Assembly: GCF_000196175.1 (NCBI RefSeq)
Contig: NC_005363.1
Coordinates: 3,162,001 to 3,226,000 of the forward strand
DNA length: 64,000 bases
Direction of reading: 5' to 3'
Origin: Bdellovibrio bacteriovorus HD100
GTDB taxonomy: Bacteria; Bdellovibrionota; Bdellovibrionia; Bdellovibrionales; Bdellovibrionaceae
Shown: positions 47,957 to 50,461 of the stretch, piece after piece
Numbering within the stretch: position 1 is the stretch's first letter
Layout: every line of letters begins with the position of its first letter
The notes under the pieces: generated by a model
Told to the model about the DNA's origin: nothing
The model's input: only the letters and a program-made list of their open reading frames with translations
Databases searched by the model: none
Translations under genes and position numbers: made by a program

Positions 47957-48889
47957 TTACCTAACTCCGCCAAGAGTGCTCATTGCATAATCCATTCTTA
48001 CTTTGAACTCATCAGACCTGAGATAGTCGTATGCTCTTTTGCCAAAAATGACTGCATCAAAATCTTTGCCCATCTTTTTATTCAGATAGATGGCCACTAC
48101 GATGGCTGGAATTAATCCGACGACCACAGGACCCGGCACTAACGCCGAAACAGTAAAGGTGGCGCCAGCAATGATTCCTCCGCGCGAAATGGCTTTGCCA
48201 CATACCAAAGAATTGTATCCCATGGCCATGGCAACAACTGCAATTGCCAGAGTTAAAGGATTTATAGACACTGCACCGCCGACCAATAGCGCACCAATCG
48301 TTTTTGAAAAGTTCTCTTTGTCTTCCTTCTTCCATGCAAAGAACAAACCCACCGCACTCAGCGTACCGGCAAGAATAGCTTCAACAGCCTCCTGGCCATT
48401 AACTGTAACCAAGTCCCGGGCCGTCTCTTCATCAAAGACTTTTCTTAGGATTAGATAAAGGTTCTCTGTTAAATCGCCGAAAACCGGCATTCCCGCCGGA
48501 GAGGACAGATCCGTAAAATATGCTTTTGACCATTCTTGAAATATTTCAGAATTCGACCAGTCGTTCTCTTTCCCAATCTGTCTGGCGCGCTCGATCGATT
48601 CAAAGAATGTGTGTCCGCCATCAAGTATCCTATGGTTAGAGGGTGAAAACTTAAGCAATGTATCAGCATCAATCGCTCCGACGCCTGATTTCAGAAAATC
48701 GGAATCCATAGCTTTTGATACTTCAGACTTATAGGTATTCAAGGATTGAAACCAATCCATTGAAGACACTTGCTGAGATATAACTGAAGCAGATGAAACA
48801 CCTACCGCGAAGAGGGACTTCGATTCGTTTTTAATTTTTTCAATTGTTTCATCAGCGATACCGATAGCTTCAAAGAGAGTCTTCTTCAT
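47957..48889 (-). CDS. AT-richer orphan membrane protein, unknown
   Basis: The 310-residue product has a soluble N-terminal half (about 1-165, helical, with MDWFQSLNTYKSEVSKAMDSD). A C-terminal half follows with three or four Gly/Ala-rich hydrophobic segments (LAGTLSAVGLFFAW, GALLVGGAVSINPLTLAIAVVAMAMGY, GIIAGATFTVSALVPGPVVVGLIPAIVVAIYL). No signal peptide. The base composition is visibly AT-richer than the neighbours, so it may be a recent arrival. A sigma-28-like promoter precedes it. It is not a family I recognise. It lies next to the GC-rich element at 49035-49149. Confidence 0.65.
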   Translation of the reverse strand: MKKTLFEAIGIADETIEKIKNESKSLFAVGVSSASVISQQVSSMDWFQSLNTYKSEVSKAMDSDFLKSGVGAIDADTLLKFSPSNHRILDGGHTFFESIERARQIGKENDWSNSEIFQEWSKAYFTDLSSPAGMPVFGDLTENLYLILRKVFDEETARDLVTVNGQEAVEAILAGTLSAVGLFFAWKKEDKENFSKTIGALLVGGAVSINPLTLAIAVVAMAMGYNSLVCGKAISRGGIIAGATFTVSALVPGPVVVGLIPAIVVAIYLNKKMGKDFDAVIFGKRAYDYLRSDEFKVRMDYAMSTLGGVR

Positions 48890-48936: not shown

Positions 48937-49034
48937 AGGCTGCATCACTTCGAGACAGAGGCTTTTCGGCAAAAAACTAAACGCATCGCTTCGGAAAAAG
49001 TAAGTAGGTACCTTTTAAACCAATATCAAAGGTT

Positions 49035-49149
49035 GCTCAAAACGGTTCAGCCGCAAGGCGGAGGGGGTCGGCTGCCACGGAGGCGTGCTCCTAGCACGTC
49101 GGAGAGCAAGACGGCCCCCGACAACGCAGTCGGATGGGCCGTTTTCAGC
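49035..49149. ncRNA. GC-rich multi-hairpin intergenic element (candidate structured RNA or mobile repeat)
   Basis: An outer stem (GCTCAAAACGG 49035-49045 with CCGTTTTCAGC 49139-49149, one mismatch) encloses three hairpins. They are CCGC/GCGG (49051-49061), CGTGCT/AGCACG (49084-49098), and ACGGCCC-CCGAC/GTCGG-(AT bulge)-GGGCCGT (49111-49142). The third ends in TTTT on the plus strand and overlaps the outer stem, so the two are alternatives. The element abuts the 3' end of rlmI. It could be a structured RNA, a terminator for rlmI, or a dispersed repeat; sequence alone does not decide. Confidence 0.45.
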
Positions 49150-49156
49150 GACCGCC

Positions 49157-50461
49157 TTAATGCACGTAGTGGACGTACATTTTTAGGTAGAACCCTTCCG
49201 GGAACTGCATCAGTGTCGGATGGTCAGCCGCATGGCCCCCGCGCAGAACGCTGCGAAGTTCGGCGTAGTTTCTCAAAGACGCCTTACGAATGGCATCGCG
49301 GAATTCTTCTTCTTCCAGCAAACCGGAACAAGAGCATGACGCCACAAATCCGTTCTTTTTGACCAGACGGAATGCGTGCGTGTTCATCTTAAGGTAAGCG
49401 TGCTTCCCGATTGGGATGTCTTTTTTGGATTTGATAAACGCCGGTGGGTCCGCGATCACGATGTCATAGTGAGTGCTTGGCAAAGCCGCCAAACCTTCAG
49501 ACACGTCCATTTCGTGAACGATGACTTCCGCCCCTTCACGTTCGGCATTCTTCTTCGCGAAAGCCAATGCGGTCTTGGAGATATCTGCCAAAGACACTTC
49601 CACTTCAAAGCCCAAAGACTTCAAAGCACGTGTGATCTGCGTGGACCAGTGACCGACATAGCAGCACAGATCCAAAACACGGATCTTGCGCGGCTGTTGG
49701 GTTTTGGCCCAGTTCTTAAATAACCCCACTGCCAGGAAGATGTTGTGAGTCTGATCCAGGAAGAAACCCGTTTTTTGGCCTTCAACCAGATCACAGCTCA
49801 TGGTGATGGTGCCGTCGTCACCTGCGGCGTTTAGCACGATCTCAACATCGCGCAGGTTCATGTCCGGCAGATCCTTGATCAGGCGCGGTTCTTCAACCTG
49901 CAAGCCTTCAAGCTTGCGCACACCCACGTCGTTACGAATCACCACAGCCGTTTGATCCCAGCCAAACTCGGACAGACCTTGCGCATGAGCTTTTTCAGCC
50001 AAACCTTTGAAGAAGCCTTCGGCATCCTTCAGGGCTTCGTTCATTCCCGCCGTCACCAACTGGGCAGCAAAAAGCTGAGCACGTTTGCCGTTTTGTACGA
50101 TCACATAGTAATCCAGAACCAAACCTGGGATGAAATCAGATTCGCCAAACGCCAGACGGAAGCTGCCACGGAAGCCCGCAGCCTTTCTTACGCGCCAAGA
50201 GTTGAAGATCTTTTCATGAAGGAAGTCAAAACTGGTAGGATCCTTGTCCTGGCTGTTGAAGCTCAACGCACGGAAAGAAATCAGGGAATGAGGATTGCCG
50301 TAACCGCGGGCCAAAAACTGCCCCTTGGAATCCTGAAGCTCTACCGCCGCACCTGCGGGATGACCCTTAGGGCTTACCAGCAGCTCGTTTGAGAACACCC
50401 ATGGGTGTCCACTGCGAATTCTTTTATCGGCTCCCTGACGAAGACGCCACACTGTCATCAT
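49157..50461 (-). CDS. rlmI: 23S rRNA m5C methyltransferase, RlmI family
   Basis: RlmI methylates C1962 of 23S rRNA. The N-terminal PUA domain reads WRLRQGADKRIRSGHPWVFSNEL. A middle domain follows (FHLEKIFNSWRVR-like region, then FIPGLVLDYYVI). The SAM-binding Rossmann core has VLDLCCYVGHWSTQ (motif I, about 268) and ADISKTALAFAKKNAER, and the catalytic region is IVIADPPAFIKSKKD with the later Cys-rich VASCSCSGLLEEEEF. At 434 residues it is slightly longer than E. coli RlmI (396). It begins a run of minus-strand genes downstream of the phytase-like gene. Confidence 0.9.
   Translation of the reverse strand: MMTVWRLRQGADKRIRSGHPWVFSNELLVSPKGHPAGAAVELQDSKGQFLARGYGNPHSLISFRALSFNSQDKDPTSFDFLHEKIFNSWRVRKAAGFRGSFRLAFGESDFIPGLVLDYYVIVQNGKRAQLFAAQLVTAGMNEALKDAEGFFKGLAEKAHAQGLSEFGWDQTAVVIRNDVGVRKLEGLQVEEPRLIKDLPDMNLRDVEIVLNAAGDDGTITMSCDLVEGQKTGFFLDQTHNIFLAVGLFKNWAKTQQPRKIRVLDLCCYVGHWSTQITRALKSLGFEVEVSLADISKTALAFAKKNAEREGAEVIVHEMDVSEGLAALPSTHYDIVIADPPAFIKSKKDIPIGKHAYLKMNTHAFRLVKKNGFVASCSCSGLLEEEEFRDAIRKASLRNYAELRSVLRGGHAADHPTLMQFPEGFYLKMYVHYVH

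Follow-up and report, generated by a model that had tools for sequence, protein, structure and literature searches.

The 64,000-nucleotide stretch of the Bdellovibrio bacteriovorus HD100 chromosome analyzed here (NC_005363.1, positions 3,162,001–3,226,000; referred to as the window) contains a GC-rich palindromic element immediately beside rlmI, at window coordinates 49,031–49,155 on the + strand. It is one of a large family of hairpin repeats with relatives in many phyla; in Bdellovibrio the copies are docked against the stop codons of adjacent genes and are locked in orientation relative to replication, and in a member of the Desulfobacteraceae relatives have transposed. We lean somewhat towards the view that it is a resident copy of a widespread, non-autonomous repeat resembling miniature inverted-repeat transposable elements (MITEs), which is kept in Bdellovibrio as a 3’-end element of leading-strand genes. 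An initial annotation of the locus, made from the sequence alone, missed the replication polarity, the docking at stop codons as a rule of the family, and the mobile relatives.

Copy number and conserved structure

The HD100 genome (3,782,950 bp) contains about 32 distinct copies of the element (34 matches to a covariance model built from 21 copies), all short (~125 bp), intergenic and dispersed. BLASTN identifies 23 full or near-full matches with E values of 1.7e-9 or better, the query itself included, together with many fragments. The GC-rich multi-hairpin stretch that the initial annotation placed at 49,035–49,149 is thus present and correctly located, with true edges that are slightly wider, and its proposal of a dispersed palindromic repeat is borne out: the element is multi-copy and covaries strongly, rather than being single-copy and without covariation.

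The copies share a fold consisting of a 21-pair outer stem in which an A-tract faces a T-tract, a variable inner stem, and a central hairpin (GGCGTGC..GCACGTC). The outer stem and central hairpin are kept in all 21 full copies, an invariant C.C mismatch lies inside the outer stem, and two internal-loop stretches, CAAGGCGGA and CAACGCAG, are nearly invariant. Compensatory changes on both sides are seen at 22 of the 37 pairs, and 97.3% of cells in the 21-copy alignment are paired; these values were not reached in any of 500 shuffles, and pairing falls below 50% when the partner is shifted by a single column. The RNA fold predicted for the + strand has a free energy of -68 kcal/mol (z -5.1; equalled by none of 200 shuffles), compared to -51 kcal/mol (z -1.7) for the - strand; under RNA and DNA parameters alike, all 21 copies fold more stably as the + strand than as its complement.

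With near-constant G.U pairs left out, G.U pairs outnumber A.C mismatches by 30:4 in this genome, 52:17 in the order, and 185:50 in other phyla, the latter two sets being aligned with a model trained on the + strand that favours this strand somewhat. This excess indicates that pairing constraint acts on the + strand. A mutational artefact was rejected by argument only, in that the common strand-specific C-to-T bias would shift the ratio the other way.

The element can be divided as follows. The 5’ arm of the outer stem (49,031–49,054) carries the A-tract and the C.C mismatch (49,038 opposite 49,146), with double changes in 13 of 21 pairs, and is followed by the CAAGGCGGA strand of the internal loop (49,054–49,062), whose near-invariant columns are also seen in distant copies and whose CAAGGCG motif recurs across phyla. 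The arms of the inner stem, supported by double changes in seven of eight pairs, are at 49,063–49,070 and 49,112–49,119, and enclose the central hairpin (49,082–49,100), the hallmark of the family (98.8% of cells paired; GGCGTAC..GTACGYCG in other phyla). The opposing internal-loop strand CAACGCAG (49,122–49,129), which has invariant or near-invariant columns and is likewise found across phyla, leads into the 3’ arm of the outer stem with its T-tract (49,129–49,153), also identified by covariation. These assignments and the element edges derive from the alignment of 21 genomic copies and from covariance model R1.

The initial annotation described an outer stem enclosing three hairpins, the third of which was thought to compete with the outer stem as in a switch. 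The outer stem and central hairpin are conserved, whereas the two lateral hairpins can form in this copy but are not conserved: 13 of 21 copies lack pair 21–31 and eight lack pair 89–102, while the outer-stem pairs drawing on the same bases covary (pair 22–102, for example, is CG in 11 copies and UA in 10). The proposed competition is therefore not supported, and a riboswitch or other two-state switch was rejected because the mutually exclusive helices (the first and third hairpins) are not conserved.

Elsewhere in the genus the element is present in 20 of 23 genomes searched besides HD100, at 3–59 copies, and some Bdellovibrio genomes have 0–3; one copy is on a plasmid, in Bdellovibrio sp. 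HAGR004. No match was found among phage records, and a phage origin was set aside. The genome G012 contains arrays of head-to-tail tandem copies spaced ~125–140 bp apart (L447, L449, L455, L459, L465 and L471), in each of which contact with a stop codon is possible for only one copy. A divergent HD100 variant (L059; G000 2086915–2087016), shared with G002 and G023 at orthologous positions, retains the core motifs CAAGGCG, GGCGTGC..GCACG and CAACGCAG within wholly different outer stems. Two further copies (L053, G000 747077; L058, G000 1008684) are split by another repeat module (..AATAGCAGGAWGCTATT..GTCAGCCCGAAGGG..), which is possibly a REP family of this genome’s Y1 transposases.

Docking at stop codons

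The position of the element relative to the adjacent gene is constrained. Docking could be scored for 52 copies, those next to an open frame of 100 codons or longer, with genes called from open frames rather than annotation, and in 44–45 of these the antiparallel gene ends between -11 and +6 nt from the 3’ edge of the element; in the -11 cases the stop codon is the element’s own TGA. Five of the 52 are 62–126 nt from the gene end, one of them in a tandem array. Two further genomes have 24 of 28 copies docked (-11 to +8) and 17 of 18 (-14 to +9), with looser spacing to parallel genes on the other side of the element. The upstream gene lies about equally often in either orientation. In other phyla, too, gene ends tend to fall at the edge of the element, which in Desulfobacterota contains a TGA. 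By comparison, simple hairpin terminators in HD100 start 0–39 nt past the stop codon.

At the rlmI locus the element is separated by 1 nt from the end of the gene (open reading frame 49,157–50,461, - strand; TAA stop at 49,157–49,159). The encoded 434-residue protein has PUA_3 and S-adenosylmethionine methyltransferase domains consistent with rlmI, in agreement with the initial placement of the element between this gene and an orphan. The orphan, to the left, encodes 310 residues (47,957–48,889, - strand), has no Pfam match, and is missing from the orthologous site beside rlmI in the sister species G023. Immediately left of the element is GTAAGTAGGTACCTTTT (49,000–49,016), and similar pieces, GTAAGCAGGTACCTTTT and ACCAGGCACCTTTT, adjoin other copies (L050, L075, L079 and L098); these look like a second small dispersed repeat.

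Orientation relative to replication

We located dnaA and dif in 11 complete genomes, with the HD100 dif sequence at 1,946,844; a position near 1.94 Mb has been reported (PMC2731167). Among the matches listed, the leading-strand template carries the structured strand in 304 of 325 cases, although sites are partly common by descent among close relatives and the 325 are not independent events; weak overlapping matches on the opposite strand of the palindrome are left out of these counts. Polarity is fully one-way in HD100 (32 of 32) and G022 (23 of 23), and among the matches listed is 46/46 in G012, 25/25 in G002, 22/22 in G023, 27/28 in G011 and 69/76 in G017; values elsewhere include 20/22 in G021 and 13/15 in G005. 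Leading-strand genes make up 174 of 329 (53%) in a 400 kb sample of HD100, and polarity as a by-product of gene orientation was rejected on this basis (32 of 32 against this baseline, p 1.5e-9). Of the copies that run against the rule in G017 and G006, 11 were inspected and just two are docked in the typical manner against a gene of 100 codons or more; polarity and docking thus seem to go together.

These features bear on whether the + strand specifies a functional noncoding or cis-regulatory RNA, multiplied for a useful product or binding partner. The structured RNA envisaged in the initial annotation holds with respect to its conserved structure, and the covariation, the preference for G.U over A.C on the + strand, the conserved CAAGGCG and CAACGCAG loops and the C.C mismatch would all suit such an RNA. 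However, there is no conserved promoter block upstream, just a G-poor 20-nt stretch, the upstream gene has no preferred orientation, and transcription of the + strand would run head-on to replication; moreover, none of eight published attack-phase small RNAs coincides with a copy, in a study that mapped attack phase and not growth phase. We consider this explanation unlikely.

Distribution and mobility

Matches are present in 70 of 291 Bdellovibrionota genomes, spanning 38 genera. A pattern scan of GTDB identified at least 119 stretches, of which those listed are mostly in Desulfobacterota, with others in Nitrospirota, Acidobacteria, Planctomycetota, Rokubacteria and elsewhere, and the HD100-trained model recovers the element in most of these loci; pattern matches in Caballeronia and Muproteobacteria look like chance. 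Relatives are found across Bdellovibrionota, Desulfobacterota and Nitrospirota and sporadically in other groups, consistent with the suggestion in the initial annotation that similar elements recur in diverse bacteria. Apart from tRNAs, Rfam searches at gathering and permissive thresholds reported no family in the window or in 35 loci containing distant copies.

Evidence for movement comes from Desulfobacteraceae bacterium Eth-SRB2, which has many near-identical copies with inverted-repeat ends (GAYGG..CCRTC, also written GAYGG..TCGTAAAAA). Perfect 6 bp flanking duplications of the form A-4-T are present at 19 of 38 copies, compared to 0.8% of mispaired controls, and six more match at five of six positions (10.5% of controls). 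These ends and target duplications show the family to be MITE-like and mobile in this organism. Similar duplications are seen in proviral contigs and at individual loci in other bacteria, and all full copies have inverted-repeat ends in the form of the outer stem. A Desulfocapsa copy (L278, 59–188) lies exactly between perfect inverted flanks (TATTTTGTGAATTT and AAATTCACAAAATA), as if inserted in a hairpin loop.

Orthologous sites in two sister species of HD100 are filled at some loci and empty at others, and the most similar copies within two other Bdellovibrio genomes share 93% identity, indicating no fresh burst there. Filled orthologous sites can differ by entire compensated stems where the flanks are ~95% identical, and this pattern of sequence differences suggests replacement or conversion between copies.

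Orientation is less constrained in two genomes outside Bdellovibrio. In Geobacter sp. AOG1 approximately 42 of 61 copies have the same sense (p 0.002; counted by hand, with origin and terminus placed roughly by GC skew), and the recent Eth-SRB2 copies occur in both orientations as close neighbours. As these fresh copies are unpolarised, the polarity in Bdellovibrio is in our view best explained by loss of those copies that had the better-folding strand on the lagging-strand template.

Models for retention and polarity

How the element might be maintained is suggested by its context. Behind the hairpin on the gene-sense strand is a T-rich, C-poor tract of moderate strength, and the element exchanges with simple terminators at orthologous gene ends in the sister species. 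At the rlmI site neither sister has the element, and G023 has a simple bidirectional terminator between the left neighbour and rlmI. Termination of rlmI, also raised in the initial annotation, is plausible given this replacement and the position 1 nt past the stop codon.

We propose that ends carrying stop codons on the gene-sense strand, together with the A/T-tract stems, would let the element sit directly behind genes, and that Bdellovibrio would retain it as the transcript 3’ end, a terminator-like hairpin, of docked leading-strand genes; such retention would explain the interchange with simple terminators. Copies in the other orientation may be lost through the placement of the better-folding strand noted above, or alternatively because a transcript end functions only where transcription and the fork run the same way.

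Several observations weigh against retention of a mobile hairpin as a 3’-end element. Polarity is poor in G015 (17 of 22, all five exceptions in one block) and G006 (10 of 14). Judged by the G.U bias, the strand that folds is antisense to the docked gene, an arrangement not expected of a simple terminator in a 3’ untranslated region, and at site L033 the sister lacking the element has a terminator-like hairpin that is also kept in HD100 beyond the element. No target duplication was detected at any fixed register in the Bdellovibrio copies, and no transposase-sized element with matching ends was recognised in 0.8 Mb of Eth-SRB2 or at any other locus fetched, such that mobility within the genus is inferred from the relatives and from gain and loss between species.

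The last two results also count against a model in which polarity is a record of entry, with replication-coupled insertion occurring in one orientation at the lagging strand. Tn7 with TnsE joins the lagging strand in one orientation, and the orientation of the element fixed relative to the fork and the precise inverted ends and short duplications in relatives fit this model. The unpolarised recent copies in Eth-SRB2 and the weak polarity in Geobacter AOG1 do not, and such insertion seems improbable. A broader formulation, put forward tentatively, is of a mobile multi-phylum hairpin that is docked at stop codons and held in one orientation to the fork in Bdellovibrio, with replication direction controlling its spread or survival, be it through lagging-strand entry or through its use as a co-directional transcript-end device.

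It is more doubtful that the element is a chromosome-handling sequence that senses the direction of the fork in the manner of KOPS or Chi and is kept only in its working orientation. Such a role would account for the switch of orientation at dif and dnaA and for the one-way arrangement in five genomes, but the copies are few per genome (0–3 in some Bdellovibrio), are docked at genes rather than evenly spread, and in Eth-SRB2 the near-identical mobile copies are in both orientations.

Relationship to other repeats

The closest counterparts that we find are the 24 ‘predicted short RNA elements’ described in a 2009 Geobacter paper (PMC2700814), whose available text gives a central palindrome GRCGTAGCGCTGCTACGCC and notes further examples in G. 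sulfurreducens, G. uraniireducens and Desulfotalea. Both groups are intergenic and multi-copy, and GRCGTAGCGCTGCTACGCC resembles the GGCGTAC..GTACGCC seen here; searching Geobacter sp. AOG1 with model R2 gave 66 copies, of which one or more contain the GGCGTAC palindrome. The Geobacter elements probably belong to the same superfamily, a kinship judged from the quoted palindrome and not from an alignment. In the available text of that account they differ in being presented as RNA elements, for example in 5’ regions, in few species, and occurrence across many phyla, target duplications, docking at stop codons and replication polarity do not feature (PMC2700814).

MITE-like repeats such as ERIC/RU-1 (127 bp according to the available text of PMC2759123), RUP and Correia are similarly short, dispersed, palindromic and numerous, with target duplications shared by the mobile relatives of our element; they lack the conserved multi-loop interior, the stop-codon docking and the replichore-tied orientation in Bdellovibrio. 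Bidirectional intrinsic terminators share the A-tract/T-tract stem between genes and occupy the same orthologous sites, but the element has ~90 nt of conserved internal structure in place of a short loop, and a weak U tail. Inspection by eye found no integron attC core boxes (GTTRRRY/RYYYAAC) consistent among copies. A repeat of the REP/BIME type moved by a Y1 (RAYT) transposase is highly improbable, in that the likeness extends to extragenic palindromes in many copies (PMC6006769) and to the Y1_Tnp proteins of many of these genomes, whereas the element differs in its 125-nt length and structure, its relatives make 6 bp duplications unexpected for single-strand Y1 transposition, and copy number is independent of Y1_Tnp (at least 46 copies in G012 and 19 in G016, both without a Y1_Tnp match).

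In the open literature we found no description of repeats like these that are polarised or docked. The family is widespread yet absent from Rfam 15, and would merit an entry in repeat and RNA libraries. From its docking and from the way it alternates with simple terminators, mobile hairpins seem to be a source of new transcript ends for genes. If the polarity is confirmed, each genome would offer dozens of nearly equivalent hairpins in a single orientation, a natural experiment, repeated many times over, on how the direction of the fork influences which sequences persist in bacterial chromosomes.
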